Shown piece after piece: positions 43,644-60,260 of a stretch of 64,000 nucleotides of DNA (position 1 is its first letter; each line of letters opens with the position of its first letter). The position numbers were made by a program, and so were the translations under genes. The DNA lies in assembly GCF_019977735.1 (NCBI RefSeq), contig NZ_AP025018.1, forward strand, positions 7,568,580 to 7,632,579, given 5' to 3'. The notes under the pieces were generated by a model. The model made no database searches and had not been told where the DNA came from. It saw nothing but the letters and a program-made list of their open reading frames with translations. This DNA is from Calothrix sp. PCC 7716 (GTDB taxonomy: Bacteria; Cyanobacteriota; Cyanobacteriia; Cyanobacteriales; Nostocaceae).

Positions 43644-46600
43644 TTATTCCGCTAATTCTGTTACGATGGGGAATAATGGGCTACCCGGCGCCCATAGTTC
43701 TGTGCTGCCTGGGTGTTGGTCGAAGTAGTCTGGTTTGGTTGTTACTCTCAAGGTTTGTTTCATTCCTGGCATTGAGTATTTATATTCGCCGTTTTGCATG
43801 AGTTCTACTTCTATTCCTGGGGGTAGGAGGGATGGGTTTTGTAGTATTTGGTCTAGGGTGTTTAGGTCATAGGTTGGTTGTGGACGTGCGGGTTCTTCTA
43901 GGTCTGCTTCTGTTATTGTGTCTAGGTCAAAACTTTCTTGTTGCGCTTGAAGTATGTTGTTTTCTAGTTCGCTAACTATGGTTGCTCGTTTTTGCTGTTG
44001 GTCGGTACGATCGGATAGGGTTGCGTTGGTGATGCTTCTGGGTAAGGTTGCTAGTATTGGTTGTAGTTTTCCTACGTATTGAGAAAATAAGCCTATTCTT
44101 TCTCTTAATGCTAAGTATACGTCGGTTTCTACGGTGCCTGAGTAGTGGAGGTTGATTATTTTGATGTTTTCGTATATTTGACCTAGACGGTCTATTCTAC
44201 CTATACGTTGTTCTACTCGCATCGGGTTCCAAGGCATGTCATAGTTAATTAAGGCGCCGCAAAATTGAAAGTTTAATCCTTCGGCTGCTGCGTCTGTACA
44301 TAAAAGAATATCTGCTTTTCCTTCTCGGAATATTCGCTTGGTATCGTCTCTGGAAATTACTCGCCAATTTCTATTATTGACTGCTTGTTCTCCACCTCGT
44401 CCTGAGAAGCAGATAATTTTATATTGTTCGGCTTGCTCTAATAAGTACTGACGCAAAAAATCCATTGTGTCTGTATATTGGGTGAAGATGATTACTTGTT
44501 TGTAGCCTTGGTTTTTAAGTTGTTGGAGTTGCTGATGTAAAATTTGCGTTTTGGTGTCGGTTGGTAGTTGTTGGACTTGTTTTAATAAATATTCTAATTC
44601 GCGTACTTCTTCTGCTTGTAGGGCTTCTTTTTCTAATTCGTTGGCTTGTTCACTATCCATTGTTTCGTCGTCTGCTTCATCGTCGGAAATGTTTTCTTCG
44701 TTAAGTTCTAGTTGAGTAAAGTTACGACTTTTGAGGATGTTTACTCGCTGGTTTAAGGTTCGCTCTAATGCTGCAAAACTACTGGCAAGTCGGCGCCTAT
44801 AGATGGTCATTACAAAACCAACTGCGTTTTTCTCGGCTTGAGAGGCGTTATTATAGGTGCTGGATATGTAATCTTCTACTGCTTCGTACACTTGTTTTTC
44901 GGCAGGTGTTAAAGAGACAAATTTATCTTCGACTAAGCGGTTGGCTATGCGACTACTAATTTTTCCTGCTTCGTAATAGCGACGTAATAGTTCACGAGTA
45001 TGGCGGGATATCATGCGGTTGACGGGTGTGTTGGAACGCATGATGGCTATTGCTGCTCGTCTTCTATCACCACTGAGTTGTTTTCTTGGTAAAGTGGCTT
45101 TGTCTCTGAGTGCTTGTAATACTTTCTTTGTGGCTAGTTTGCTACCATTGGGTATAAATTTTTGGGCTGTTTCTAAAGATGTTTCGCCAAACTCTGCTTC
45201 AACTGCACGAAATAAGCGCGCCATCATTTCAAATTGACTGTGGCTGGGGTTGGCTGTGCTAGCATATTTAAAAAAGTCTTGGAAGTTTTGCAAGTTCCAT
45301 AGTTGAGGTAAGTCTAATAAGTCGAGTAAGTCCCAAACTTCGATGGGACTAACTTGCATGGGAGTAGCGGTTAATAAAACTAAACCTTTAGTTCTATATT
45401 TTAATTGTTGCATTAATTTTAATAGTTGATTTGCTCCTTTGGGTTGAGTACTACTAACTCCCTGGCGCCGAGCATGGTGTGCTTCATCTAAGAAAATTAA
45501 ATCGTATGGTTCAGCTGAGTGTATTAATTCTCTAGCTCTATCTACCCTTCGCATTAAATGACTGGAGGTTATAACAATGGGTTCAAAGTGCCATTCAGTA
45601 CGACTGATGGGTTTGGTGATAGGTTTATCTAATATTCTTAATGCTGGGCAATCATACCAAGTTAGTGTTTTACCATCGTAAATAGGAACATTTAGGTTAA
45701 ACTTTTCTCTAAGTTCAATTTGCCATTGAGTAAGTACTGCTTTAGGCGCCAGAATAAGAATACGTTTGGCTTTTCCAGCTAACCAAGCTTGACGTATTAG
45801 TAACCCCGCTTGAATTGTTTTGCCTAAACCAACTTCGTCTGCTATAAGAAGTTTGGGAGGCCAGTTTTGATAAAGACGTTGAAATGCATTTATTTGGTGG
45901 GGGTAAGGTATTACTGCACAGGTAGCTTCACCAATGTAGTCTCCTTCTGGAGAAATTGCTGGACTTTGCTGTATGAGGCGCCAAATCTGTTTAAATTGTT
46001 CTTGTAGCTGGAATTGTTGGTTATTTTCGTCTAAATTTTCTTTAGTTTGGGTGGGAACTTGTAAATCTTCAACCCCCATTAGTCGTTTCGGTTTTTGGTC
46101 GGTGGGTGGGAGAAAACTGAGGAGTTGTTCTTTTACTGCTGTGGGAACATCAATAACTAAACAGCGTTTAGCTTGGTTTGCCCAAAGTTTCGCAAAACCT
46201 CGTTCTTCGTCATCTACATAAGTTTTTGCACCACCCCAGTCTGTGAAAGCGTGAAAACTTTCCCAGTTTGATGTCCATCCTCTGGCTGTTTCGTTGACAC
46301 TGCCATTAAATGCTAGTCTGTTACCAGCTTTATCTTCAATAATTCCAGCTTTTTCGTGAAATATTCCTTGTAAGGGTATTGGTTGACGTTCGAGTGAGCA
46401 GGGTAAGGCAAGTTTAACTTCTAAATAACCGTTGGCGATCATCCAAGATAAAAGTTCTAATGCGTCTGCTTCTTCTATATTTTCTGGCGCCAGGGGAAAA
46501 TTGGATAGTACACGGTCTACTACTTCTCTAAGTTTCTCACCGCGCGCGATTGCTTGAACTTCTTCTTCCCGGAGAGTGCAACCTATAATTAACCGCATAA

Positions 46601-46787
46601 CTCCATTATTACGGATTAGACTTTCGATTCCAATTGCTGCTAAGGTAAGGATGCGCGCGGAGAAGAAACCAGTGGAACGGTCGTAGCGTACTGCACAACT
46701 GAGCGCTGGTTCGTAAAATTCTTTTATTAAACTTAATGTGTCGGAGTCGTATTTTGTTGCCCAGGTGTAATCTGTGAGTAATGGCAT
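43644..46787 (-). CDS. PLD-domain SNF2-type helicase (defence-associated)
   Basis: 1047 residues. A phospholipase-D-like N-terminal part has FHEKAGIIEDKAGNRLAFNG and SVNETARGW at about 138-168. A SNF2/SF2 helicase follows: ADEVGLGKTIQAGLL (about 316), LIFLDEAHHARRQG (about 434), VLLTATPMQ, VIIFTQYTDT and INYDMPWNPMRVEQRIGRID (about 850). PLD domains of this kind are nuclease-like, so the protein could translocate on and cut DNA. It is the last gene of the minus-strand defence operon. Only one HxK half-site is obvious, so dimerisation would be needed for cleavage. Its role with the methyltransferase is inferred from similar known clusters. Confidence 0.85.
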   Translation of the reverse strand: MPLLTDYTWATKYDSDTLSLIKEFYEPALSCAVRYDRSTGFFSARILTLAAIGIESLIRNNGVMRLIIGCTLREEEVQAIARGEKLREVVDRVLSNFPLAPENIEEADALELLSWMIANGYLEVKLALPCSLERQPIPLQGIFHEKAGIIEDKAGNRLAFNGSVNETARGWTSNWESFHAFTDWGGAKTYVDDEERGFAKLWANQAKRCLVIDVPTAVKEQLLSFLPPTDQKPKRLMGVEDLQVPTQTKENLDENNQQFQLQEQFKQIWRLIQQSPAISPEGDYIGEATCAVIPYPHQINAFQRLYQNWPPKLLIADEVGLGKTIQAGLLIRQAWLAGKAKRILILAPKAVLTQWQIELREKFNLNVPIYDGKTLTWYDCPALRILDKPITKPISRTEWHFEPIVITSSHLMRRVDRARELIHSAEPYDLIFLDEAHHARRQGVSSTQPKGANQLLKLMQQLKYRTKGLVLLTATPMQVSPIEVWDLLDLLDLPQLWNLQNFQDFFKYASTANPSHSQFEMMARLFRAVEAEFGETSLETAQKFIPNGSKLATKKVLQALRDKATLPRKQLSGDRRRAAIAIMRSNTPVNRMISRHTRELLRRYYEAGKISSRIANRLVEDKFVSLTPAEKQVYEAVEDYISSTYNNASQAEKNAVGFVMTIYRRRLASSFAALERTLNQRVNILKSRNFTQLELNEENISDDEADDETMDSEQANELEKEALQAEEVRELEYLLKQVQQLPTDTKTQILHQQLQQLKNQGYKQVIIFTQYTDTMDFLRQYLLEQAEQYKIICFSGRGGEQAVNNRNWRVISRDDTKRIFREGKADILLCTDAAAEGLNFQFCGALINYDMPWNPMRVEQRIGRIDRLGQIYENIKIINLHYSGTVETDVYLALRERIGLFSQYVGKLQPILATLPRSITNATLSDRTDQQQKRATIVSELENNILQAQQESFDLDTITEADLEEPARPQPTYDLNTLDQILQNPSLLPPGIEVELMQNGEYKYSMPGMKQTLRVTTKPDYFDQHPGSTELWAPGSPLFPIVTELAE

Positions 46788-46835
46788 AATGTTATTTTGG
46801 TATTATACAGCTAATTCCATCTTCATACGGTACAT

Positions 46836-46863
46836 GTAGAGACGCGATTAATCGCGTCTCTAC
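46836..46863. repeat. 28-bp perfect palindrome
   Basis: GTAGAGACGCGATT followed by its exact reverse complement AATCGCGTCTCTAC. It is a common dispersed palindrome type in cyanobacteria. It lies in the 135-base gap between the DUF262 gene and the helicase gene, followed by an ACGCAGAGGACACAGAGAG repeat. Confidence 0.8.
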
Positions 46864-46922
46864 AAGGTTTCGGGTATCATGCATGTTTACCACAGAGACG
46901 CAGAGGACACAGAGAGGAGGAT

Positions 46923-48602
46923 TTAAATATCTGTCTTTTGAATCATAAAGCTAAACTTTTCTAAGATTAGTTTTTTCCTTGCTTCGATAAATTGTTCGTA
47001 ATTATCTAGTTTCCATAGTTCTTTATCTTTGGGGATTAGATGTATGTCTAAATAATTGTCGTTTTTATCATTAAACCAGTCTTCAGGAAGAATATCTTTT
47101 TTTCCTCCGGCGCCGTTTTCTTCAGCGGTTAACAGCATACAGTTGGCTATTTGGTCTCTATCAAATTGTAGATATTTGAGGGTGTCTTTGCGGTTTGTTG
47201 TTGGGTTAATTTTTTTGATTTTACGTAGCTGCGATTGAGGAAATATATGGTCTATTTGTGGTAAGTTAGCATTATAAGCCGGATGATAGTTAAAATCTTT
47301 GTACCATAAGTTAAAGTATAGGTGGATGTATTTGGATGAGTAATGCTGTGTTAAAATGCTAGACTCAGTAATTTCTAAGTTTCTACCGTCTGCCCGAATG
47401 AGGTTAAATAGCTGTTTAATTTCAAATTCTCCAGTTTCTTTAATATTTCTGGTTAATTTATCAATTAATTTATCGGGACTACCACTAAAGGCGCCTGTAA
47501 GTAAGGTTCTTAGTATATAAGTATTTAAGTCTTTTATGTTAGACCATTTGTGGGGGTGGTGGTAGCGAAAGTAGATAATGGGAATTAATGATAGGTAAGA
47601 AGGGATACCTTTATCGGTGCGGAGAAAGGTTTTGCCTAAGAGGAAGTCTTTGACATCTTTGATGGCATTAGCTATATTGTCCCAGTTTTTAATAATTTCT
47701 TCCTTGGTGACTCCATCTCTAAACTTTTTAACATCATATTGGGCGCCTTTATCGAGTATGGTTATACAGGTTTTTAATATCAAGTCTCTGGTAAAACTGT
47801 AACCACATCTATTTAGTTCATCGATTAAGTTTTCTAACTCTTCGTCTGCATCATCCCAACTAGATGTTAATAAAGAAAATAGTAAATCTGATTTACCTAG
47901 TTGAGTACCACCAGAATTTGCTCTAATAAAAATTTCAACAACATCATCTTCTTGATATGCATTTGGCTTATCAACACTATCAAGTTCTTGATATATGACA
48001 AAATCTACTGTACAAAACTGTCTCATAGTTAGAGCAATATTTTGACGAATACGTCTTTTGTCGTCTTTACTTAACTCTTCATCACTATTTTCAATAATTG
48101 ATTCGGCTATTTCGTCATAGGTTTGATAGCTAAAAATAATATCTTTGAATTTAACCCAAGGGAATTTAACAGTGTCAGGGTTTAAAAATTTGAAATTATA
48201 ACGTATATCTTCTGGCGCCGCTAATTCTCCACTTAATACGTTGAAGAATAGTTCTTTTTTATCATAGCTGCCTTTTAAGCCAATATACATAGCTTGTAAG
48301 CGTTGCTGCCCATCTAGAACTAGTAGTTTTGTTTGACTATTCTCTGGAACATAAAAGTCGGTAAGCTTCAAATTTTGCTTGTAGTTATCAATAAATTTAC
48401 GACACTTGATTTTTGCGTTTGTACGCCATACTAAAAGGGTGCTGATAGGGTATTCGCGCATTATTGAGTCAAATAGCCGCTCTATTTGTTCTTCTGACCA
48501 AACGAAGGGACGTTGAATATTGGGTAGCCAGAAACCGCCTTGATATTCTTCATTGTTGAGATAGGTTACAATTTTACGAATGGTTTCTTTTAGACTTTTC
48601 AT
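46923..48602 (-). CDS. DUF262/DUF1524 protein, GmrSD-like restriction endonuclease
   Basis: 559 residues. The N-terminal ParB-like DUF262 domain has FWLPNIQRPFVWSEEQIERL, then FDSIMREYPIST and LLVLDGQQRLQAMYIGL (DGQQR near 94). The C-terminal HNH-type region has LPQIDHIFPQSQLRKI (near 450) and DQIANCMLLTAEENGAGGK. This matches the GmrS-GmrD fusion layout of type IV enzymes, which cut modified DNA using NTP. Both active regions look intact. It sits between the DUF1156 methyltransferase and the helicase, on the same strand, with gaps of 135-145 bases on both sides filled by palindromic repeats, so it may be an addition to the core operon. Confidence 0.88.
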   Translation of the reverse strand: MKSLKETIRKIVTYLNNEEYQGGFWLPNIQRPFVWSEEQIERLFDSIMREYPISTLLVWRTNAKIKCRKFIDNYKQNLKLTDFYVPENSQTKLLVLDGQQRLQAMYIGLKGSYDKKELFFNVLSGELAAPEDIRYNFKFLNPDTVKFPWVKFKDIIFSYQTYDEIAESIIENSDEELSKDDKRRIRQNIALTMRQFCTVDFVIYQELDSVDKPNAYQEDDVVEIFIRANSGGTQLGKSDLLFSLLTSSWDDADEELENLIDELNRCGYSFTRDLILKTCITILDKGAQYDVKKFRDGVTKEEIIKNWDNIANAIKDVKDFLLGKTFLRTDKGIPSYLSLIPIIYFRYHHPHKWSNIKDLNTYILRTLLTGAFSGSPDKLIDKLTRNIKETGEFEIKQLFNLIRADGRNLEITESSILTQHYSSKYIHLYFNLWYKDFNYHPAYNANLPQIDHIFPQSQLRKIKKINPTTNRKDTLKYLQFDRDQIANCMLLTAEENGAGGKKDILPEDWFNDKNDNYLDIHLIPKDKELWKLDNYEQFIEARKKLILEKFSFMIQKTDI

Positions 48603-48644
48603 AGGTAAACTTTTAGTAAATGATGATATTTCCCCCTTTGCGCT

Positions 48645-48698
48645 CTTTGCGTTCTTTGCGGTTCGTTAAAGAATTAAACCGCAAAGGACGCAAAGGAC
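48645..48698. repeat. Inverted repeat in operon gap
   Basis: CTTTGCGTTCTTTGCGGTT at 48645-48663 pairs with AACCGCAAAGGACGCAAAG from 48677, with a 13-base loop and one mismatch. Related to the GCAAAGGACGCAAAGGACAC repeats frequent in cyanobacterial intergenic DNA. Confidence 0.7.
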
Positions 48699-48747
48699 AC
48701 GTAAAGCGGAGCTTTTCCCGAAGGGTAGAAAGAGAAGAAAAGAGGTA

Positions 48748-51684
48748 TTATGCTATTTGAATGTTTAACCACAGTTCTAATTGTTTAGGCTGAGGTACTT
48801 TCTCGCTGAATGCTAAACGACGCAAACTTTCTAAGACATCAAAATCTTTTGCTGCTTCTGCTACTTCTCCTTCTTCATCTGTGAAACCTGTATAGGTACT
48901 AGAGACGGGTAACACTTCTAATACTGCTAATAAAGCGGTTTGAAAATCTGGGTCTTTATCAACTTCGTTACTTTCCAGCAGTTTTTTAGCAGCTTCTAAA
49001 CCATTGCTACGCGCGCGGTTAGCTGCATGGTGTAATGCATCAATCATCGCGCGACTGCCATCTGGTGAACCTAAACTAGCTTTTGCCGCGCGCTGGCTAC
49101 TATCCCATAATATTAAATCGCTAGATTGTTTTTGGGCTAAGTAACCAACTATTTCTTTGTCTAAGTCTACACCTACAACTCTGGCTAACCGCAAAGCTTC
49201 ATCATAGGGGAAACGAGGAGCTTCAAAAGCATCCCAAGCTAAAACAAACCATTCGGTGATGGGGTCTAAATTTGTTTGGCGTTTTGTACCTAAAAGTTGT
49301 TCCATCCGCCATTGTTTCACCTCCCGTCTAGCTGCGTCTAAAGCATCTTCGGGGGTAACAGCATAAGGGTCAAACTCATCAAATAAGTTCGTTTGCTTAC
49401 TTTTTTGTTTAATTTTTGGTGGGGTTTTGGGAGTACCACGAGTAAGAGGCCAGTGTTGTGATAGTTCTTGTAAAGCAGGACCAAAGCAGGAGAGATATAA
49501 GTCAACGCCTTTAATACCATACTTTTGAAATTCTTGGACTCGTTTTCTAACAGCTTTGGCAACATCCTTTTCTACATCTTCCCAATAAACGGTATCATTT
49601 TCTGCTTTGGGGGGACGGGGACGACAAACGAGGAATATAGTACTTTTAGCCGCAGCTTTATCTTTTATATGTAGACTTCCTTCTGCTTCTGTGTTTACAG
49701 GCCATGAAGCAGTGATAGTGAAACCTGCTTCTAGTAAACCACTGGCTAAAGCGTCCCAGGCGCCTTGAGCTTTATGGGTGAACATAAGTGTGAGAATACC
49801 ATCTTCTTTGAGGACACGACGACACTCACTAAAAATACTCGCCATGCGTTCTTGATAATCTTTGGTTGCTAATGCCTTGGCGCCTTTCTCTCCTTGGAAC
49901 TTAGCAGGGTTGGCTACGGCTTCGTTTTCTTTATCTGTTAGTTGGCGAGTAAAAAATTCAGGGTAGACATAACCTGCGGTACGCTTTAGCCAAACATAGA
50001 AGAAGTCGCTTAGTTCTGCGTACATTACATTATCATAGTAAGGAGGGTCAAAGACAATGGCATCTATGCTGTTATCTTCTAGATGAGACAGGTTATCTCC
50101 CGAATCGTTTGTAATTGTAATGTTGGGTATGCTAAAAGATGGCGATGTTAATAATTGAAGTTGCTTTCCTTTGCTGTTATAATTTTTAATATTAATATCT
50201 GAACGGCTTAATTCGATTAGTTCTTTGATACATTTTTCAGTTTGTTCTATTGCCCAATCATAGCCAAAACCTGTTATAAGAGGCGCCATTTCAGCGAAAG
50301 ACCAACAAAAAGCAAAATCATGGCGATTAAAAGTATTTGCTATAACTTCTCTTGTTGGCATCCATACTGACATTATAGAGTTATAATTTAGCAGTTTATC
50401 TAAAGCAAAACTTAAGTAAACAAACGCTACTTTTGTTGCTTCGTCAAACCCGACTTTTGTGTTTTCCTCTTGTAATAATTCTCGTAATGCTTCTACACTT
50501 ATACCATGACAAAGAAGTTGGCGTTTAGAAAAGAAATCAGACCAATAATTTAATCCGTACAAGTATGAATCACGAGTTTCAAAACCGTAAGGTATACTTT
50601 CAGTAGGAATAATATCTAATGCTTGCCATTCAATTAATTTTTCATCTAACTTTCCTTTAATTTCTACTGAATTATTATCACTTGGCAGAGAAGCGCGGTA
50701 TTTTCTTTGCCATTTTTCTTTTGTTTTTCCTGTTTTAGTTGTATTGACTATCTTTTCTTTATACACAACAGCAAATAATTGTTCGCCCATTTCTCCAGCT
50801 TGAGCTTGGCATTTAATCTCTTCAATTGAAACAACTCGATTACAATCAGGATAAGGACATTGAGCATCACCTTTACTAACTGTTCCTTCTGACTGGTCTT
50901 TGCTTTTATGGACAATTTCAAACTCACAGATGCGCTTATTTAAATTAGGCTTTAAGCGTATTCCTGTACCATCAGGTGAAAGTTTCCAGTTAGGTGAAAG
51001 GGGAATAAGACCTTCGCAATAAGGGCAGCGTATAGTACGGGCATAAAGATAACCGTCAACTCTATTATTATTAGGTTCAGCAGGAAATATACCTTGATAT
51101 TTTGGTTCTGCTCTTTTAATAAATTGTTTAGAAATACGTTTATATTCTTCCAGAATTTTCAATCCATATTTTATAGGTGCTTCTAATGTTTGTTTAAGAA
51201 TAACAGATGCTACTGGATTAATGTCATTAGCAATAGTTTCAAAACCAAGGCGTATTGATTCAAAAGGGATACTACCTCCGCCTGCTGTAGGGTCTAAAGT
51301 AACAGGATTTTTCAGACCTATTCTATTTGTTTCATACCTCAACCATTCTTTATCCCTATCTGAAGGAATATAAGAAAATGCTCGTTCATATCCATAAATA
51401 TTAGTACCTAAATTTTCTCCAGTCTTTTTAGCTTTTTCTATTTTCCTGCGAGTTGCAACTGGGTCACCATGAATACCTAAAACATGGAGAAACCTTTTAT
51501 GGTCAGCATCCGCAGGTAATAAAGATGCTAAGACTGCTGCTCTTGATGCTACTAAAGGGCGCCTTGCCCACCAAACATGAAGGTAATATATAGGGGGTAA
51601 GGCTGTCATTGAACGTCTTTCTCTGACGCTTTCTTCACCTATTTCCGCTACAGGTAGCCACTCTTCAATTAACCTTCTAGTCAT
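48748..51684 (-). CDS. DUF1156 adenine-type DNA methyltransferase (anti-phage associated)
   Basis: 978 residues. The N-terminal DUF1156 segment is [20 protein letters not shown], then [23 protein letters not shown] motif [18 protein letters not shown] is near 128, two zinc-ribbon pairs ([18 protein letters not shown]) lie near 220-285, and the catalytic [15 protein letters not shown] (DPPY type) is near 543. It would methylate adenine (or cytosine N4) in DNA, giving self-marking. Proteins of this kind are known next to DUF499 ATPases in defence clusters. The start is supported by the family's usual beginning. No target specificity can be read from the sequence. Confidence 0.9.
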
Positions 51685-51768
51685 AATATTTTTTAATAGT
51701 TTTGGGTGTTGCTGTCTTTCTCTTCTCTGTGTTCTCTGTGTCCCTGTGGTAAAGAGAATTACATGATT

Positions 51769-51790
51769 GAACAGGCAGGGATGCCTGTTC
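51769..51790. repeat. Hairpin repeat in operon gap
   Basis: GAACAGGCA and TGCCTGTTC form a nine-pair stem with a GGGA loop. An AGAGAACACAGAG-type direct repeat lies just beside it (about 51715-51740). Dispersed repeat type. Confidence 0.7.
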
Positions 51791-51800
51791 TACAAGAGGA

Positions 51801-52298
51801 TTAATTTTGATCTGTCAATAAACAGCGCAATGCCATTAGGACTCGCCGGGGGTTTTTACGATGCATTGCCATTCCTAACCAGTAAGCTGCTTCCTCTTTG
51901 CCCATTGCTTCTATTCCTTCAGCACAAAAGCGTATATTTTCGCGGTTTCGCATCGGCGCCAATACGCGAAACATTAAGCCCATTCTTAGTGCTTGTTCTT
52001 CGTCAAGGTTAAAATCTTTGATTTCACCTCTTTGTAGTTTGGTTAAATCAATGTTTATTTGCTTGAGTTGACGTAGTAAGCGATGTTCAATTAAAGCGAA
52101 GTTTCTACCTTTTATTCCGGCTACACGTTTGGGATTTTTAAGATGTGGTGTGGCTGGAGATGGTAGTTGCCATATTTCTAATGATAAGTCGCTTCCAGGC
52201 AATTTTTCTACTTTTAATTGGTATTGAGGTGTACTCAAGTTTTTAGTAAAGGAATCGTAATTATATGAAAATTGGGTAAATGATAGAGTTGCAACCAT
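51801..52298 (-). CDS. Small protein of the DUF499/DUF1156 cluster
   Basis: 165 residues, soluble, beta-rich first half and helical second half (LRMGLMFRVLAPMRNRENIR, then FCAEGIEAMGKEEAAYWLG). It lies 2 bases after the DUF499 gene stop, so the two are translationally linked. A small gene in this place is usual in such clusters (DUF7680- or DUF3780-like), but I cannot tell which family from memory. No catalytic motif is visible; an adaptor role between ATPase and methyltransferase is plausible. Confidence 0.65.
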   Translation of the reverse strand: MVATLSFTQFSYNYDSFTKNLSTPQYQLKVEKLPGSDLSLEIWQLPSPATPHLKNPKRVAGIKGRNFALIEHRLLRQLKQINIDLTKLQRGEIKDFNLDEEQALRMGLMFRVLAPMRNRENIRFCAEGIEAMGKEEAAYWLGMAMHRKNPRRVLMALRCLLTDQN

Positions 52299-52300
52299 TT

Positions 52301-55300
52301 TTAACGCGCCTCTGCATAAGCTTCTACAAATGCTGCACCAGTGGCGAATCTGGTTAGCTTTTCTGTGATTTTTTCTGGTTCGCCTCCATTTAGGTCTAAC
52401 CCGCTGGTGTAGGTTAGGGTAAATGTCATTTCTAGGTTGGTTTCGGATGCTGCTCTTAGTTGAGGTTCTAAAAATCCTCTTATTGGTTGAGCGTCGTTTA
52501 CTTGTCCTTTAAATTCCATGCTGAAGCTGCTATTATTAGTGGTTTCATATTCAGCTTTGAGTTCTATTTGTTTTTCGGCGCCTGATATGGTATTGATAAC
52601 ACCAAGTAGTTTAAATCCATCATTACCATCAAATACTCTTAAGCTAAGAAGATTTATTTTCTTGATTTGGGCATTGCGCGCGTCTTCCCAAATTTTGGTT
52701 AATGCTTCTCGTAATGGCGCCTCTGCTTTAAAAATATTTGGTCGAGCAGGTGGTATGATAATTTCTTGAGTGCCTTTGGTAGTAAAATTGTAACTACTGC
52801 CTTTGTCTGCTACTTTAGTTATGGTAGGCTGAATTTCTTCATCAGGAATGCTAGTTGTACCTGTATTGGTTGTTGGAGTTACTGTAACAGCAGGACGAGG
52901 CCATATACCATGTTCTTTGGCATAGGTTGCAGTAAAAACAATTGACTGTTCATCAATTTTAATTTCTGCATAGGGGTCGCCTTGTCCTAATAGTAAGTCT
53001 CCACTTTGATAAACATAAATTCCCTGCTCTATTCCTAGCCGCACCATTTTAATAAAGGTGTCATCACTAAGCATGATGGGGAAACGGGGGTCTTTGCGAA
53101 ACTCTGCTCTTAGTTCAGCGGTGCTAATTTGTCCTTTTTTCAAGGGTGTTTGGTCTCTAACATAATTTGGAGCAGGTGGGTTACTATTGGGCTGAAGTAA
53201 TTTTTGATTATCTAGCAATGCTTTGACAATTTCTTGCTGCCCATTTCCGGGACGTTCGGAAGCTGAGGGTAAGTCAAAAGCTGTATGCGCTAAATCAACA
53301 TTTGCTCCATCAAGACGGTTACGAGATGGGTAAAAAAGATGTCGATAACATTGTTGGATAATAATCGCTAATTCTTGTTCGGATTTTTTGTACAGTTCGT
53401 TAACTTTTTCTTGCTGATGTTCTGGTAATTGTGCCATACGGTCAGGCGCCCGCATTGCATCTAATGCCAAGCGATAAAGTATTTTATTTTTCATTTCATC
53501 ACGAGTGGCATCATCAGCAACCAAAAATACCAAGTTATTTAGTAATTGACGAAATCTTGATTGGTTTCCTTGATAGCGATAGATATTTTCTACTAACTGT
53601 GGTACTTTTACTGCTTCATTCTTAACTGTTTCAGCATCGTAACTGATTAGTACTAAATTAGGTTTTCCATCTCCTATATCATCTACTACATCATAGGCGC
53701 CTCCTGCAAAGGGATTCAAATTAAAGGTTCTCCCACTAAAAATACTACGAATATGGTCTTGTAATAAATTTCTAGCTTCATTCGTATCTACTTGCTTTGT
53801 TTGGCGCCGAATGAGGACACCAAGATTAACTTCGGTTAAAAAGCGTAAGGGTGCAGTGGGACGGTCATCAAGATAAGCAGATTCAATAATAAACTTTTGA
53901 CGCGCGTCGTTAATAAAGCTGACATCCAAACCAGGAGAAAGGATAGCATAACGCAAGTTTACTTCATCGATACCTTGAAGGTTTTCATTAAATGCGAAGG
54001 TATTCCAAAGTATATTTCGAGCGACAAAAGAAGCATAAGGCGCCAAACCTGCATAGTATTTAATATCTAACTGTTGTGCTAAAGAAGTTCCTTTGTCGGT
54101 TGCTGCTACATCATTTTCAATTACAGGGTCAAATCTTCCTAATTCTAGACGAGTTGTAATTTCATCTCGGATGGGAATGCAACCTGGATTAACATGATGT
54201 AGATGAATAGCATAGGTATTCGCAGGTTGTTCTTGCCAAATATAAGCAATGGTTCGTGTCAGTAACCTCAACATTCCCCGAACACGCTGGAAGGTACTTA
54301 ACGTCGAGAGTTTATCTGTCAGTAAGTCCATCAATGCTGGGTGAAAAGGAAAACCATTCCGAAAATCTGCTGCTCTATCTACGTTGACACGCTCTGTTGG
54401 TAAATCACTGCGATGAGTTACCCATAATTGGTTATAGTTACGAATTACCTCTTCAGCAGCATCATTATCAATATAGGAAAATAATCGGCGCCGTAATACT
54501 TGGACAGTTTCCTGCTCTGTAGTTGGGTTTAAAAGCGTAGCAAGGCGCCCAGCAACTTTTGTAGCTTCGTCGAGTTTTTCTGCGATAAATTCATTCTCTT
54601 GAGAGTAAGCATCTGTCGCTTTCCCTTCTTTACCAACTGCCAAAGTAAAGACCACACATGCTTTTTCTGAGGAACTTACAGCTTTAAATAAACCTGTCAA
54701 AAAAGGCGTTAACTGGTCTTGCTCCTTTCTGCCTTTGATTTTACGTAAATATATAGATAATTCATCTAGCAATATTAATACTGGCTGATTTGCAAATAAC
54801 TCTTGAATTGTAGCGGCGCCGGGAGCAACTTTTTCAATATCGCTTTGACGTACTTTCTCATATCCAGCAACTCCAGCTAAACCATAAGCCAGTTCTCCCC
54901 AAGGTGTATAAGCTCTTAAACCGTTACCAAGAGGTCTACCATTAACTGGGTCTGCATTTTCCCCATCAAAAGCAGCTAATCTTACGGTAGTTGTCGGCAC
55001 AAGTTCAGGCTCAATAAATTCCTGAATATTCTCCACACCCTGCATTCCTTGCGCTGCATGAGTCAGAGCAATCAAACTGTGGGTTTTACCACCACCGTAC
55101 TGCGTATCTAGCCGTAAAACTGCAGAGCCTCCTAAACCTTGTAGCCTTTGGCACACAGTTTTTAATAATGCCTTTAACCCAAGGGTGGGATGAGTATTTG
55201 CAAAAAATTTATTTGCTACAGCATATTCGGCTGGTGCAGTCTTATTTATAACCTGAGCTAAGTCTGCGGCAAAATCAGACTCTCGAATATCTCCTTTTAA

Positions 55301-55342
55301 AATGTCCGGGCGAGGACTACAAATTTCAAATAAGGTTTTCAT
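52301..55342 (-). CDS. DUF499 AAA-type ATPase (anti-phage associated)
   Basis: 1013 residues. Walker A is LDTQYGGGKTHSLIALTHA near 80-98; Walker B is PVLILLDELSIYLRKIKG near 185-202. VFTLAVGKEGKATDAYS may be a sensor strand, and LSTLSTFQRVRGMLRLLTRT is a typical DUF499 helical segment. A long C-terminal region follows. DUF499 ATPases occur beside DUF1156 methyltransferases in predicted and tested defence clusters and are thought to drive target recognition or loading. It starts 2 bases after the XRE regulator stop, so the regulator and this gene are one transcript. It looks intact. Confidence 0.88.
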   Translation of the reverse strand: MKTLFEICSPRPDILKGDIRESDFAADLAQVINKTAPAEYAVANKFFANTHPTLGLKALLKTVCQRLQGLGGSAVLRLDTQYGGGKTHSLIALTHAAQGMQGVENIQEFIEPELVPTTTVRLAAFDGENADPVNGRPLGNGLRAYTPWGELAYGLAGVAGYEKVRQSDIEKVAPGAATIQELFANQPVLILLDELSIYLRKIKGRKEQDQLTPFLTGLFKAVSSSEKACVVFTLAVGKEGKATDAYSQENEFIAEKLDEATKVAGRLATLLNPTTEQETVQVLRRRLFSYIDNDAAEEVIRNYNQLWVTHRSDLPTERVNVDRAADFRNGFPFHPALMDLLTDKLSTLSTFQRVRGMLRLLTRTIAYIWQEQPANTYAIHLHHVNPGCIPIRDEITTRLELGRFDPVIENDVAATDKGTSLAQQLDIKYYAGLAPYASFVARNILWNTFAFNENLQGIDEVNLRYAILSPGLDVSFINDARQKFIIESAYLDDRPTAPLRFLTEVNLGVLIRRQTKQVDTNEARNLLQDHIRSIFSGRTFNLNPFAGGAYDVVDDIGDGKPNLVLISYDAETVKNEAVKVPQLVENIYRYQGNQSRFRQLLNNLVFLVADDATRDEMKNKILYRLALDAMRAPDRMAQLPEHQQEKVNELYKKSEQELAIIIQQCYRHLFYPSRNRLDGANVDLAHTAFDLPSASERPGNGQQEIVKALLDNQKLLQPNSNPPAPNYVRDQTPLKKGQISTAELRAEFRKDPRFPIMLSDDTFIKMVRLGIEQGIYVYQSGDLLLGQGDPYAEIKIDEQSIVFTATYAKEHGIWPRPAVTVTPTTNTGTTSIPDEEIQPTITKVADKGSSYNFTTKGTQEIIIPPARPNIFKAEAPLREALTKIWEDARNAQIKKINLLSLRVFDGNDGFKLLGVINTISGAEKQIELKAEYETTNNSSFSMEFKGQVNDAQPIRGFLEPQLRAASETNLEMTFTLTYTSGLDLNGGEPEKITEKLTRFATGAAFVEAYAEAR

Positions 55343-55344
55343 TA

Positions 55345-55593
55345 CTAATGAGAGGAATGTTTATTTAGCAACTCTTTTCCGCGCTCACCCATCTCTATTA
55401 GTTGCTGCTCAAGATTTTTTACCGCTAGGCGTGATGGTATGGAATGACCATTTTCCCAGCGGTTCACTGTAGAAAATGTCACACCAATTAGACTAGCGAA
55501 GTCTTCTTGAGACAGCCCTAAATTCAAACGAATATCGCGGATAAGCCTTCCACATGTTGGTTGTGAAAGTACCAAGATGGGGCGCCTATTCAT
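55345..55593 (-). CDS. XRE-family HTH regulator, first gene of the defence operon
   Basis: 82 residues with one helix-turn-helix: GRLIRDIRLNLGLSQEDFAS, then LIGVTFSTVNRWENGHSIPS. This is the Cro/CI type. Being first in the minus-strand operon and directly coupled to the DUF499 gene, it probably controls its own promoter, whose likely operator is the palindrome at 55617-55642, 24 bases before its ATG. It could restrain the operon until infection. Confidence 0.9.
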   Translation of the reverse strand: MNRRPILVLSQPTCGRLIRDIRLNLGLSQEDFASLIGVTFSTVNRWENGHSIPSRLAVKNLEQQLIEMGERGKELLNKHSSH

Positions 55594-56174
55594 TTATACT
55601 TAGACGAATCATTAATATAGCGTGTGCTATGTCATACGCTATCTCACCGTATCTTCTCTGTCAAGTACTAACAAAAATTACGTATATTTTTTTAATTTTT
55701 TTCATCAAATATAAGTATAATTACTGTGATTGGTGCGAATGATAGATTTATTTCGACTGTTTATGACAGCTAAATTTGGCACCAATTTTCTTTGATGGTG
55801 ATTATTAGTATATTTGCACTAAGTACAAAGGTTTTAAATTTGGTGTATTGAAATTGGCGCTGATGCTTGGAGATTTTTAATTAGTTGGCGCCTTGACAGC
55901 GTTGGTAACAGTGAGGTAAACGACTCCACCCTACTAGCTCCAAAAAAATCTTTAGTCTAAAAATCTTTTTTAGTACTATAAGCCTGTTAATAAATCTTAA
56001 AAACTGGGTACGTTATGTAATAGGAGATATTTTGCAACAAAATTAAATACTTAGAAAGCATGTATTACAACAGTTAGTTCAATTTAGAGGCTGTACACTG
56101 GGAAACCTATTTGTACACAGCTATTGTTTTTCACAGTTGGGAATACTTGCTGTTTTAAGTATGGGAGCTAACTT
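55594..56174. promoter_or_regulatory. Divergent regulatory gap of the defence locus
   Basis: 580 bases between the XRE gene (minus) and the kinase gene (plus). It is AT-rich with the palindrome at 55617-55642 near the XRE side, and TTGGCACCAATTTT-like and GGCGCC motifs in the middle. Near the kinase, GGGAGC lies about 8 bases before the ATG and serves as a ribosome site. Both promoters must be here, but no clear -35/-10 pair could be fixed by eye. Confidence 0.55.
55617..55642. promoter_or_regulatory. Candidate XRE operator palindrome
   Basis: ATAGCGT and ACGCTAT are arms of a 26-base inverted repeat with a 12-base centre that itself contains GCTAT. It lies 24-49 bases upstream of the XRE start, the usual place for autoregulation by a short Cro/CI-type protein. 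Binding is inferred. Confidence 0.5.
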
Positions 56175-57155
56175 ATGAATGTATATGATGCCAAAGGTCA
56201 GGGGCGCCCGTTAGGAGAACAAATCGGTGGAGGAGGTCAAGGAAATGTTTATTTAGTTGGCTCTGAGCCAAATAAAGTTGTCAAAATATTTCATCAAGAT
56301 AAGTTGAAAGAAAGAGGAGCAGGATTTATAGAAAAAATACAATTACAAATTGAGATGAAAGAATTAGTCTCTCACTCTAATATTGCTTGGCCAAGAATTT
56401 TAGTTTTTGATAAAAATGCTCAATGCATTGGATATGCCATGAAAAGGATTGAAGGCGTACCATTGACAAAACTAGCACATCCAATGCTATATCAAAAATA
56501 CTTTCCGAATTTAGATAGATTGAATATAGTAAGAATGTTGCTATATTTATTAGATATAGTTAAAGATTTACATAATCATAAAGTATATATAGGAGATATA
56601 AATAAAGAAAATATCATTTGTGAACCTAAATCTTTTCAACCTTATTTAATTGATGCAGATAGTTACCAAATAAAAAACGATAAAAAAACTTATCATTGTC
56701 CTGTTGGTAGACCAGAAATGACTCCAGTAGAACATCATGGAAAAGATTTTCGGTTAGTCACAAGGACAGTTGAAAGTGACCTATTTTCATTAGCAATTCT
56801 TATGTTTGAATGCTTAATGTTAGGACGACATCCTTATGATAACATCGGTGGTGGAAATCCTGTAGAGAATTTAAGAAATGGTAGTTTTCCATATGGGAGA
56901 GGAGGTGTAAGACCTGGTTACGAAGGGGCAATTCCGAGAGGAGATTGGTACAATATTTGGAGTCATCTAACATACGATGTAAAAAGTCTATTTATCAAAA
57001 CTTTAAAAGATGGTGTTAATGAACCATCCCAACGTGCATCTATTGCAGAATGGCAAGATGCATTAGAAAGATATTTTTATGCAATGGAAAAGGGATATAA
57101 TACCAAAGAAATAAAGCCTAAAGAAGCAAAACAAAGTCAAAATGACGAGTATTAA
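56175..57155 (+). CDS. Protein kinase-like protein of a TerY-P type triad
   Basis: 326 residues. The glycine loop IGGGGQGNVYLV is near residue 17, the ATP lysine is in KVVKIFHQDK, and the catalytic loop is VYIGDINKENIIC. It has GD-x-N where typical kinases have HRD, with Asp and Asn kept. The metal-binding triplet is LIDADSYQI (DAD for DFG). ESDLFSLAILMFECLMLGRH is the F-helix region. These are normal for the Ser/Thr kinase-like member of TerY-P triads. It is the first of three plus-strand genes, 22 bases before the vWA gene. The substrate is unknown; the phosphatase two genes on is the natural counterpart. Confidence 0.85.
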   Translation: MNVYDAKGQGRPLGEQIGGGGQGNVYLVGSEPNKVVKIFHQDKLKERGAGFIEKIQLQIEMKELVSHSNIAWPRILVFDKNAQCIGYAMKRIEGVPLTKLAHPMLYQKYFPNLDRLNIVRMLLYLLDIVKDLHNHKVYIGDINKENIICEPKSFQPYLIDADSYQIKNDKKTYHCPVGRPEMTPVEHHGKDFRLVTRTVESDLFSLAILMFECLMLGRHPYDNIGGGNPVENLRNGSFPYGRGGVRPGYEGAIPRGDWYNIWSHLTYDVKSLFIKTLKDGVNEPSQRASIAEWQDALERYFYAMEKGYNTKEIKPKEAKQSQNDEY

Positions 57156-57177
57156 TCATTAAAATGGAGAAAATTTT

Positions 57178-57846
57178 ATGCCTACAAATTTCTATGATGA
57201 TTTAATTGATAATCCTACTCCACGCTGTCCCTGTATGTTAGTGCTGGATGTTAGCGCAAGTATGGATGGTGAACCAATTAACGAGTTGAACGAGGGAGTT
57301 AATCAGTTTATCCAAGCTGTTCTCCAAGATGATTTTGCATCTTACGCTGTTGATGTGGGTGTCATTACTTTTGGTGGAACAGCCCAAGAAGTTGTTCCCA
57401 TTAAATCCGTTCAGCAGGTAGAAGTACCTACGCTATATACTACTGGAAATACACCTATGGGAGAGGCCGTTAATAAAGCAATCGAGGTTTTAGAAAAACG
57501 CAAACAAGAATATAAAAATTCTGGTGTTTCCTATTATCAGCCTTGGTTAGTATTGATGAGTGATGGAGAACCAACTGATAACTATAAGGCTGCTGCAAAT
57601 AAGTTGCGTCATTTAGCTGAAACAAAGAAAATGCTTGTAATTGCAGTAGGTATTGGCAATGACTGCAATCTAAGTAAACTCTCTGAGTTTTGCCCATCCG
57701 ATAACCCACCTAAACAACTCACAGGTCTAAAGTTTCAAGAATTTTTTAAATGGCTGTCTCAAAGCGTAGGGGAAGTAATTACCAAATCGACTCCGGGAGT
57801 AAGTTTTATAGCAACAGTATCAACTAATGGATGGGAAAGCTTTTAA
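57178..57846 (+). CDS. terY-like: TerY-like vWA-domain protein
   Basis: 222 residues, one von Willebrand A domain. The MIDAS metal site is complete: LVLDVSASMDGEPINEL (DxSxS), a Thr in TTGNTPMGEAV and Asp in LVLMSDGEPTDN. vWA proteins of the TerY group bind metal-dependent partners and work with a kinase and a PP2C phosphatase. A ribosome site (ATGGAGAAAATTTT) precedes the ATG. The gene is in the middle of the triad and ends 2 bases before the likely PP2C start. It may be the scaffold that links the kinase and phosphatase. Confidence 0.9.
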   Translation: MPTNFYDDLIDNPTPRCPCMLVLDVSASMDGEPINELNEGVNQFIQAVLQDDFASYAVDVGVITFGGTAQEVVPIKSVQQVEVPTLYTTGNTPMGEAVNKAIEVLEKRKQEYKNSGVSYYQPWLVLMSDGEPTDNYKAAANKLRHLAETKKMLVIAVGIGNDCNLSKLSEFCPSDNPPKQLTGLKFQEFFKWLSQSVGEVITKSTPGVSFIATVSTNGWESF

Positions 57847-57848
57847 CT

Positions 57849-59318
57849 ATGGCATTAAAATTTATTCAAAAACTTTTTCAGAAACTAAAGCGTATTTGGA
57901 GTAAGTTTGTTTTTAGGGCGCCTTTTAAGACTGATAAGGAGCATTTGGACGATGGAGATGAGATAATGGGGACAAGCAAGAAAGTCTGGCTTACAGAAAA
58001 AGAATATAAAGATCTTTTGAATAAATTCCCAGCAGCTAGTCCATCTGTAGTTAAAGAAGTAGTGCATGATATTAATCATTACTCGATAACTATAAAAGAA
58101 TTATATACTCTTCAAAAAAGAGATGGCGAGGATGTCATAACAGATGACTGTATCGAATACGTTAAATCTAAAAAAAATAATCCAAGCCCTCACGCTAGTA
58201 AAACAAGCTCAAAAAATTCTTCTAAATCAACACAAACTTCATCAAGTTCCTCGCAAAAGAAAATTTTACCGACAGATGATGTTAATGCAAGTAATAATAC
58301 TTGTAATAAAAAGGTTGGAGAAGCCTTATCAATTGCAGCTATTACTTCATCAAATGAAATATCTAGTTTGGCGAATGAAAAACAAACTGAACTGAAAAAA
58401 TCATCTGAGCCAAGTATAACTAATTTACCTGTTTCAGAAAATAATGAACAAAAAGAGGCAACAACAGAGGTATGCGTCAATTTTGAGCAAGAAGCTCTAG
58501 CACCAACTGCTCCAGAGAAATATGTAGATGCTCAAGAGAAGTTGACAACTTGGAAATGGCGAAGAGTCTTTGGTGCGGTTGTTGGAAGTTCGCATTTACG
58601 AGTAGAACCTCCTGTTCCTTGCCAAGATGCAGCATTAGCTGTGCTGGTTCCAAGACCTGCTATCTTTGTTGCAGATGGTGCAGGAAGCGCGCGACTGTCT
58701 CACTTTGGGTCAAGTGCTGTAGTCAGATATTTGAATCGATTCATAGCATCTATAGAAGATATTAATCAAGAATTTTTAGATCAAGATAGGCAGCCAGAGG
58801 TAGAAGCTGAAAAAAGATATGCATATCGCTTTGTAAAGTATACTCTTGAAATACTTCAAGAACTGTCACAGGAAAAAAGAGAACCTGTTGATTTATTCAA
58901 GTGTACTTTGTTGATAACAATAATTGGTAAATCTAAATTATTTTGGCTGAAAGTAGGAGATGGTTCTATAGTCATTGAGAAAGACCAAGCTCTAGAATTA
59001 ATTGGTCCATTAGGAAAAGGCGATTTTGCGAACCAAACTACTTTCGTCACAGAGAATATAACAGATAAAGATATTCATTACGGTTTTCTTGATGCTCGAA
59101 ATGTAACAGCAGTCGCTGCTTTTACAGATGGAGCAGCAGAAAAACTTGTGAGTACTAATGGTTTACAAATATCACGCTCTTTGGGTAAAATATTTCACGG
59201 TATCCGAACAAGGGAGTATAATCAAGATGACTTACATGAATTCTTGAGTAATAAAGATGTTTGGTTAAGAACAACAGGTGATGATAAGGGAATTGCTATT
59301 TTGTCATCTTTGTTGTAA
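57849..59318 (+). CDS. PP2C-type phosphatase with long N-terminal extension
   Basis: About 489 residues. I choose the ATG at 57849 (MALKFIQKLFQKLK), just after the vWA stop; an earlier ATG at 57831 overlaps that gene. The first 35 residues are basic and amphipathic, next comes a conserved-looking helical part (VWLTEKEYKDLLNKFPAASP), then about 120 residues rich in Ser, Thr, Lys and Asn as a linker. The C-terminal PP2C domain has GSSHLRVEPPVPCQDAA, AIFVADGAGSARLS, WLKVGDGSIVI, AFTDGAAEKLV and TTGDDKGIAIL, so the metal-binding Asp set is present. It would remove phosphates placed by the kinase. Confidence 0.88.
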   Translation: MALKFIQKLFQKLKRIWSKFVFRAPFKTDKEHLDDGDEIMGTSKKVWLTEKEYKDLLNKFPAASPSVVKEVVHDINHYSITIKELYTLQKRDGEDVITDDCIEYVKSKKNNPSPHASKTSSKNSSKSTQTSSSSSQKKILPTDDVNASNNTCNKKVGEALSIAAITSSNEISSLANEKQTELKKSSEPSITNLPVSENNEQKEATTEVCVNFEQEALAPTAPEKYVDAQEKLTTWKWRRVFGAVVGSSHLRVEPPVPCQDAALAVLVPRPAIFVADGAGSARLSHFGSSAVVRYLNRFIASIEDINQEFLDQDRQPEVEAEKRYAYRFVKYTLEILQELSQEKREPVDLFKCTLLITIIGKSKLFWLKVGDGSIVIEKDQALELIGPLGKGDFANQTTFVTENITDKDIHYGFLDARNVTAVAAFTDGAAEKLVSTNGLQISRSLGKIFHGIRTREYNQDDLHEFLSNKDVWLRTTGDDKGIAILSSLL

Positions 59319-59365
59319 GTTTATACAATAGCTTTTCAACCTAATTAACTTAAATTAATAGTTAT

Positions 59366-59734
59366 ATGTTTAGCCATAGGGATGAGTCCGCTGGAGCCGC
59401 GAGTGCAACTTATAGAAAAGCAAAAGCTGCAATAGTAGAATCTCTAGGTATAGACTTACCAAATACTAGGTATCCGAGTGAAGACTTTCAAAATGCAGTA
59501 GATTCAATTGATGAAAAAATAGTAAATGCTTACAAACAAGGATTAAAGCGCGGTTTGAGGCAAGTAATAGCTTGGATTGCTGATGGGACAATTAGTTTTA
59601 GAGATGGTGATTTTAAAGTCAATACTGATTTAAAAATTGAGATTAAGAGAGTAAAGGCAGATGGAACGTACCAAATATTGAGATACAAGCTAGCACCAGT
59701 TGATCTTGGTTTAGAAGAAAGTGACGGTAAATAA
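59366..59734 (+). CDS. Small protein after the triad, unknown function
   Basis: 122 residues, no signal or membrane part. IDLPNTRYPSEDFQNAVDSI precedes a helix-rich middle (KQGLKRGLRQVIAWIADGTI), and a Lys-rich strand region follows (KIEIKRVKADGTYQILRYKL). No family recognised. It follows the phosphatase by 47 bases on the same strand and may belong to its transcript. Confidence 0.5.
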   Translation: MFSHRDESAGAASATYRKAKAAIVESLGIDLPNTRYPSEDFQNAVDSIDEKIVNAYKQGLKRGLRQVIAWIADGTISFRDGDFKVNTDLKIEIKRVKADGTYQILRYKLAPVDLGLEESDGK

Positions 59735-59882
59735 GATGCAATAGAGGTTTTATATGGCGCCTGTCTTTGATGCTACAAACCTGGATTATCTTTTTCTATA
59801 AGTATAAGCTGATTATTGATTGCGCTAATTTATACTTGTATACTTAGCTTCGGCTTGGTTACAAGCCGATAAATGAGATTCG

Positions 59883-59952
59883 TGTTGTGTGAGTAGCACA
59901 ACAGTTTTAGAAATAATAAAGTATAGTAATTGTCTGCTCTAAAATACTATAC
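59883..59952. promoter_or_regulatory. Two inverted repeats before a small gene
   Basis: TGTTGTG (59883) pairs with CACAACA (59897-59903), and GTATAGTA (59921-59928) pairs with TACTATAC (59945-59952), which touches the next ATG. The first may be a weak terminator or operator; the second covers the ribosome-binding region of the next gene and could hide it. Confidence 0.4.
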
Positions 59953-60144
59953 ATGAGTAAGACTACTATTGAAACAGTTACTAATATTAATGGTTATACG
60001 TTAATGGTATTCTATACACCTATGCATTCTTGGCAGTTCAGAATATTGAGCAGGGAAGGCGCCGTTTATGGGGAGAAAAAAAGTTATTCTTCAGCACGTG
60101 CGGCAGAAAGTGTAGGTAGAAAGTGGTTGCAGCAGTTGGGATAA
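59953..60144 (+). CDS. 63-residue protein, unknown function
   Basis: Small soluble protein (YTLMVFYTPMHSWQFRILSR; SSARAAESVGRKWLQQL) with a beta-rich start and a C-terminal helix. No motif recognised. The start is next to the arm of an inverted repeat, and no clear ribosome site is free. Codon use resembles its neighbours, which supports a real gene. Confidence 0.45.
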   Translation: MSKTTIETVTNINGYTLMVFYTPMHSWQFRILSREGAVYGEKKSYSSARAAESVGRKWLQQLG

Positions 60145-60260
60145 GTAGTTTTGGTGTGTAGGCGCCCTTATATTATGTGGAGTTATAGGTAGTAACTGTT
60201 GCCAAGGTAATTATTGGTCGTGGTAAGTTAATTACTGCTGACCATTAGTTCATCAAGGTA

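Follow-up and report, generated by a model that had tools for sequence, protein, structure and literature searches.

The 64,000-nucleotide stretch of Calothrix sp. PCC 7716 DNA considered here (the window; contig NZ_AP025018.1, positions 7,568,580 to 7,632,579, or G000:C1:7568580-7632579, of a 12.4-Mb genome) carries two divergent sets of genes. On the minus strand is an operon of the Hma or BREX-Related (BR) kind, BREX being bacteriophage exclusion, and on the plus strand a kinase-vWA-PP2C triad that resembles TerY-P. Most likely these are two separate defence modules that adjoin within a region rich in defence genes, and their adjacency is best put down to chance, since each module occurs mostly without the other in related genomes. 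A preliminary description of these genes had proposed a new combined system, in which phosphorylation controls a methylation and restriction machine. Its nine-gene layout, strands and gap of about 580 bases hold (the halves lie head-to-head with 581 bases between the XRE and kinase genes), and every family that it assigned is recovered by Pfam. The open reading frames, Pfam matches and translations show recognisable active-site motifs in each of the nine. The combined system was tested from both sides and is rejected as the main account of the locus because the halves are mostly found apart. Two things are of lasting value: the BR lineage with DUF7680, and the small four-gene cassette resembling TerY-P, which occurs in varied neighbourhoods. 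The genes and their best matches are as follows.

43644-46787, minus strand: PLD (HKD-like) and SNF2 helicase, HmaA-like (Pfam SNF2 1.7e-21, with Helicase_C; N-terminal PLDc_2 6.9e-6 at 26.4 bits, just under the cut-off of 27; PLD_Helicase 1.3e-77; HmaA 1.9e-55; NCBIfam NF042964 8.1e-115, its 385 bits falling short of the 1100 set as cut-off)
46923-48602, minus strand: GmrSD (DUF262/HNH) type IV restriction endonuclease (Pfam N domain 1.6e-30, C domain 1.1e-6)
48748-51684, minus strand: DUF1156 amino-methyltransferase, HmaB-like (DUF1156 3.4e-16, N6_N4_Mtase 2.6e-6, HmaB 2.2e-68)
51801-52298, minus strand: DUF7680 protein, the "small protein" of the preliminary description (Pfam 6.6e-46)
52301-55342, minus strand: DUF499 AAA+ ATPase, HmaC-like (Pfam 2.7e-33, HmaC 2.6e-95)
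55345-55593, minus strand: XRE helix-turn-helix protein, first gene of the operon (Pfam HTH_3 2e-13)
56175-57155, plus strand: short Ser/Thr kinase of 326 amino acids (Pfam 7.2e-9)
57178-57846, plus strand: TerY-like vWA protein (Pfam 7.3e-15; DVSAS motif)
57831-59318, plus strand: PP2C phosphatase (Pfam 1.2e-32), its domain at residues 252-472 preceded by a long N-terminal extension
59366-59734, plus strand: fourth gene of the cassette, 122 amino acids, of no known family (without a match in the profile and system libraries scanned)
55943-59749, plus strand: extent of the four-gene cassette, from DNA homology to Calothrix PCC 7103 and Chlorogloea CCALA 695

By its gene content, the minus-strand half is an Hma operon or, under the name that PMC12839542 gave to Hma, a DUF499-centred BR operon. 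The DUF499 AAA+ ATPase, DUF1156 amino-methyltransferase and SNF2-family helicase lie in one operon, in the order XRE, DUF499, DUF7680, DUF1156 methyltransferase, GmrSD and PLD/SNF2 helicase, the XRE stop being separated from the start of DUF499 by 2 bases. The preliminary description was right to see a known defence cluster here: the cluster of DUF499, DUF1156 and PLD-helicase is described as Hma (PMC8565338) and as BR (PMC12839542), and a DUF499-methylase-helicase neighbourhood had been recorded earlier together with HEPN domains (PMC3710099). The NCBIfam models nearest to three of the BR proteins bear anti-phage names, all scoring below their own cut-offs. Motifs can be read in the DUF499 protein (GGGKT), the methyltransferase (DPPY) and the helicase (DEAH, and HEKAGIIED near the N-terminus); we take GGGKT to be a Walker A motif and HEKAGIIED to be an HKD-like (PLD) motif.

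The operon is likened to the Type-2 BR systems because a PLD-helicase is present and, judged by its genes, it is a Type-2-like BR operon with a different small subunit. Shared with Type-2 are the DUF499 AAA+ protein, the DUF1156 amino-methyltransferase, the SNF2 helicase with HKD/PLD at its N-terminus (PLDc_2 at 26.4 bits; HEKAGIIED conserved) and a small stand-alone subunit. However, that subunit matches DUF7680 only, whereas Type-2 BR is reported with DUF3780 in 98% of taxa (PMC12839542), and the window adds GmrSD and XRE. The GmrSD protein has its N-domain (DUF262) and C-domain (HNH) fused in one protein, as in the known type IV endonuclease, but the window copy lies inside a BR operon; an auxiliary effector role has been reported for GmrSD/HNH nucleases found near BREX and BR systems (PMC12839542).

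From what is known of these families, the DUF1156 methyltransferase would mark self DNA, the DUF499 ATPase would assemble and scan DNA in an ATP-driven manner, and DUF7680 may serve as a reader or adaptor. The PLD-SNF2 helicase, the presumed nuclease-helicase effector of the operon, would then degrade or cleave unmarked DNA. The added GmrSD nuclease probably attacks modified phage DNA, and XRE, presumed to be the regulator of the operon, probably controls it by autoregulation.

The plus-strand half is, as far as its sequence tells, a TerY-P-like triad within a discrete four-gene cassette. TerY-P is described as vWA, PP2C and a kinase that bears a C-terminal zinc ribbon or, in the stand-alone defence forms, an OB-fold (PMC11090510; see also the review PMC7699616). 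TerY-P alone protects Pseudomonas aeruginosa PAO1 (PMC10889362), and phage defence by the window triad is predicted by analogy. In the window, genes for vWA, PP2C and a Ser/Thr kinase adjoin and their motifs can be recognised, but the kinase of 326 amino acids shows neither zinc ribbon nor OB-fold (it ends in a short charged tail, with no CxxC found by eye and no room for an OB-fold), the order is kinase-vWA-PP2C, and there is an extra, small fourth gene, which lies beyond the coordinates given in the preliminary description. In the translations, PP2C retains DG and DDKG and the vWA protein DVSAS; the kinase lysine, catalytic Asp/Asn and metal Asp are invariant in four aligned kinases, the window's included, these residues and motifs presumably having the roles usual in such proteins. 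The cassette is probably self-contained: the kinase and PP2C would act as a switch based on phosphorylation, and the vWA protein would be its metal-dependent scaffold or sensor.

The edges of the cassette are seen in its closest relatives. DNA homology to Calothrix PCC 7103 covers 55943-59741 at 86%, and homology to Chlorogloea CCALA 695 covers 56155-58489 at 80% and 58526-59749 at 85%. The proteins are 88% (kinase), 87% (vWA), 81% (PP2C) and 89% (fourth gene) identical to those of this Calothrix relative, and 82, 90, 62 and 82% identical, respectively, to those of Chlorogloea, so the fourth gene is retained in both. In the Calothrix relative, the homology also takes in about 230 bases upstream of the kinase. 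The cassette is thus bounded by edges of its own and, in the comparison with Calothrix, brings its own upstream DNA, which supports the reading as two modules. Among 386 genomes of the phylum, a kinase of more than 35% identity at E<=1e-35 was found in the window genome only. The gene order kinase-vWA-PP2C is common to the window, the Calothrix relative, Chlorogloea, Hormoscilla, Plectonema and locus L098, and recurs with more distant kinases in L125, L134, L138 and L146; the 15 other complete triads in two sets of the loci examined (L043, L062-L064 and L067-L077) have the order vWA-PP2C-kinase, a count made without L065 and L066, which are incomplete or fused. A triad of that second order with the short kinase type (40% identical) is also found on a Photobacterium toruni plasmid (L088, 13296-29937), where radical SAM, HD, GTPase and Csm6/Cas1/Cas2 genes are part of the same stretch.

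The preliminary description had asked for a survey of how often the two halves are neighbours, and conserved co-occurrence was found from neither side. Starting from the BR side, 107 DUF499 loci were examined, and a complete set of vWA, PP2C and kinase genes lies no more than 10 kb away in 3 of them. These are the window, L043 (on contig C3 of its genome) and L060 (Chlorogloea, on the same contig as L095). L060 was chosen for its vWA, although it is also in the DUF499 list, and L043 came from a search of the window's own genome and is absent from that list. Total flanks of the 107 loci are 16.7 kb at the median and at least 15 kb in 77; L266 is uncounted, having no DUF499 open reading frame below E 1e-10, and L035, L037, L039 and L041 are adjoining stretches. 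No triad lies near the BR operon in the five close relatives fetched of the eight listed, whose DUF499 proteins are 88% (L034), 75% (L036), 66% (L038), 50% (Aminobacter L089) and 49% (Sinorhizobium L090) identical to the window's; three further relatives at about 50%, two from Aminobacter and one from a Sinorhizobium plasmid, lie outside the set examined. Also, a TerY-type vWA was found in 153 of 291 genomes, and these do not include G078, the carrier of a BR operon at 66%. A comparison of plasmids, made by eye and weak because it covers a part of each list, found none common to the 60 listed of 124 DUF499 records and the 60 listed of 2323 vWA records. Viral contigs scanned with the DUF499 protein gave no relative, and a viral carrier of the system was rejected on that ground.

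Starting from the triad side, a search of genome contigs with the kinase alignment gave 79 loci, of which the 31 best have a kinase identity of at least 41%. DUF499 lies in the flanking DNA of one of these 31 (L095, Chlorogloea), and the other 48 loci have no DUF499 in the DNA examined. At E<=1e-10, DUF499 is absent from 28 of the 31 genomes with the window's kinase type. Those with both are Calothrix, Chlorogloea and Halomonas sp. NO4; in Calothrix, the contig of the triad does hold a DUF7680-type DUF499 locus, but about 1.1 Mb away. Since the 31 loci span 4.4-21 kb and many come from draft or metagenome assemblies, the absences of DUF499 are to be taken as lower bounds.

The neighbours of these triads are varied. 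In Chlorogloea (L060/L095), a DUF1156 methyltransferase gene, a 188-residue gene, DUF499 and a SIR2-like gene are followed after 1.3 kb by kinase-vWA-PP2C, all on the same strand. On contig C3 of the window genome (L043, 9190-19401), DUF499 and an SNF2-NOV_C helicase gene have HEPN- and ParA-like genes on one side and, on the opposite side, face a vWA-PP2C-kinase(TPR) triad, making a second DUF499/triad adjacency in that genome. In Hormoscilla (L096, 6815-13074), genes for a methyltransferase and a Bpu10I-type restriction endonuclease lie about 1 kb upstream of the triad. Further neighbours are a caspase-GUN4 gene (L097), for which no matching gene is listed in L096 or L098, and EAD1-CHAT genes within 10 kb (L094).

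How much adjacency chance alone would bring was judged in two ways. Two of 124 DUF499 places, the window being one of them, are within 10 kb of the best 150 listed vWA places, while none of the 150 best listed HsdM places, taken as a type I restriction control, is within 10 kb of a listed vWA place. Fisher's test of DUF499 against HsdM gives P 0.20 if the window is counted and 0.45 if it is left out, at low power, and no enrichment over type I restriction is therefore shown. The number of DUF499 places is at least 124 because up to two candidates were scored per genome, by which the C3 locus was missed; it stands for 126 rows minus two extra pieces of listed genes (G159:C66 and G030:C230). Random placement expects about 0.18 adjacencies per 100 loci, which is somewhat too low because the vWA list holds the best 150 matches.

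Several observations weigh against chance and for some coupling of the two modules. Besides the window there are two adjacencies, against the expected 0.18 or so per 100 loci (P 0.015), and of the three TerY-type triads in the window genome, two have one of its four DUF499 places at a distance of 10 kb or less (P about 1.2e-4 under random placement; 0.013 given the window). These P values ignore the clustering of defence genes in islands. The DUF499 genes beside the other two triads share one clade of 16 rows, and the second closest cassette, that of Chlorogloea, lies downstream of and co-directional with a DUF499-DUF1156 operon, with the SIR2-like gene between. Owing to the own-genome excess and the extra adjacencies, coupling keeps some probability. 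The form it could take is that the kinase, PP2C and vWA switch phosphorylates a BR protein or XRE and so toggles modification and restriction, the divergent layout coordinating expression. Such control would fit the head-to-head halves 581 bases apart, the own-genome triads, the co-directional case in Chlorogloea and, in Helicobacter pylori, a cluster that includes genes for type IV restriction (PMC4978471). However, the close BR relatives fetched lack a nearby triad, nearly all genomes with this kinase type lack DUF499, the window's is the only one of 36 DUF7680-labelled DUF499 rows with a triad beside it, the cassette carries its own upstream DNA, and the DUF499 proteins beside the other two triads fall outside the window's clade, at just 24% and 27% identity to it. 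We consider phosphorylation control very improbable, and the machine put forward in the preliminary description is not supported beyond this weak excess of adjacencies. If true, it would place BREX-like restriction under phosphorylation control, but adjacency alone lends that no support.

The gap between the halves and the literature were also searched for a link. Promoter matches in 55300-60300 number 20 against 18.1 in shuffled sequence, and terminator matches 3 against 2.5, both at shuffle level, and the repeats of the region look like chance. The idea that the 581-base gap holds a regulatory element serving both halves was therefore rejected. No report of a BR and TerY-P pairing was found in the literature searched: the main text of PMC12839542 mentions neither TerY nor PP2C (its supplements were outside that search), and PMC3710099 mentions TerY and DUF499, but in unrelated passages.

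The same neighbourhood could be read as layered defence, with the triad and GmrSD as backups when BR is evaded, no direct regulation, and selection for a complementary range. The auxiliary role reported for GmrSD/HNH nucleases near BREX and BR loci (PMC12839542), the STAND-like genes at 35604-40713 of the window, and the triads elsewhere that adjoin the Bpu10I-type restriction-modification pair or a caspase-GUN4 gene, or have EAD1-CHAT genes within 10 kb, are all in its favour. Nevertheless, no conserved pairing was found, and defence-island clustering alone explains the same facts, so this account seems unlikely, and two modules that met by chance are preferred. A further possibility, highly doubtful in our judgement, is that the cassette is a plug-in phospho-switch captured beside DUF499 machines of different clades (in the window, in Chlorogloea and, with the other triad type, on contig C3) and tuning modification or restriction there, and that, separately, DUF7680 defines a PLD-helicase subtype of BR that the papers searched do not describe.

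The relatives of the BR operon are cyanobacteria beside Aminobacter and Sinorhizobium. DNA homology with L034 and L036 spans the helicase, the methyltransferase and DUF7680-DUF499, jumps over about 46782-48747 and stops at the DUF499 start. This means that GmrSD, XRE and the triad are not common to the window and its two closest relatives at that place. Of the other loci examined, one (L192) has a similar XRE gene directly ahead of DUF499. A fragment of a second DUF499 copy lies 393 kb away in the window genome (L040, 12063-12854, near G000:C1 7228083), at 86% protein and 79% DNA identity, and no further BR operon gene was matched around it.

Judged from sequence comparisons, DUF7680 marks a clade of DUF499 systems with PLD-type helicases, in the operon slot that DUF3780 takes in Type-2, which is somewhat new. 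In a tree of 98 DUF499 rows, which gave long-branch warnings, 36 rows are labelled DUF7680, the window included, and their clade holds 41. Two of the labelled rows come from Aminobacter and Sinorhizobium plasmids and the others from the window's cyanobacterial order. The six DUF3780-linked DUF499 rows form a clade separate from the window's in a second tree, made without L211. The HKD-like motif is present in 15 of 16 DUF7680-labelled helicases longer than 600 amino acids. Of 42 helicases without the label, 1 has it, and this helicase (L036) belongs to the DUF7680-bearing clade; the counts include some helicases cut by locus ends. Pfam matches to PLD were obtained for the window (just under cut-off), L089 and two DUF3780-type helicases; the DUF7680-type helicase of L189 has no Pfam PLD match although the HKD-like motif is there.

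The evidence on a distant kinship between DUF7680 and DUF3780 is mixed. An hhalign comparison is collinear over 86 columns and not significant (probability 0.8%, E 0.074). The predicted model of DUF7680 (predicted local distance difference test, pLDDT, 82.7) has four strands, five main helices and a weak N-terminal helix, and DUF3780 has been described with four strands and five main helices (PMC12839542). The predicted DUF3780 model is poor (pLDDT 48.5), and the likeness is one of element counts. A fold search of the PDB on this question returned nothing at E<=0.001. DUF3780 itself was not found in the window genome at E<=1e-5, and the name DUF7680 was not found in the literature searched. 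The BR paper that names DUF3780 may have placed loci of the DUF7680 type in a different category.

The rest of the window holds other genes of interest. Nonribosomal peptide synthetase-type genes with some polyketide synthase domains (AMP-binding, condensation, KR and TubC docking) and, after them, genes for HlyD, FtsX and ABC transporter proteins occupy 4954-27441 on the plus strand, making up a natural-product cluster with a likely exporter. On the minus strand are an AAA ATPase gene at 30233-31867, with PADLOC similarity to IetA (8.7e-16), and, at 35604-40713, genes for a 930-residue HEAT-repeat protein with weak, below-cut-off matches to NB-ARC/NACHT and for a 731-residue NB-ARC and TPR protein. 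DDE transposase genes are found at 27650-29047 and 42007-43131, also on the minus strand, with about 510 bases between the second of these and the gene for the helicase.

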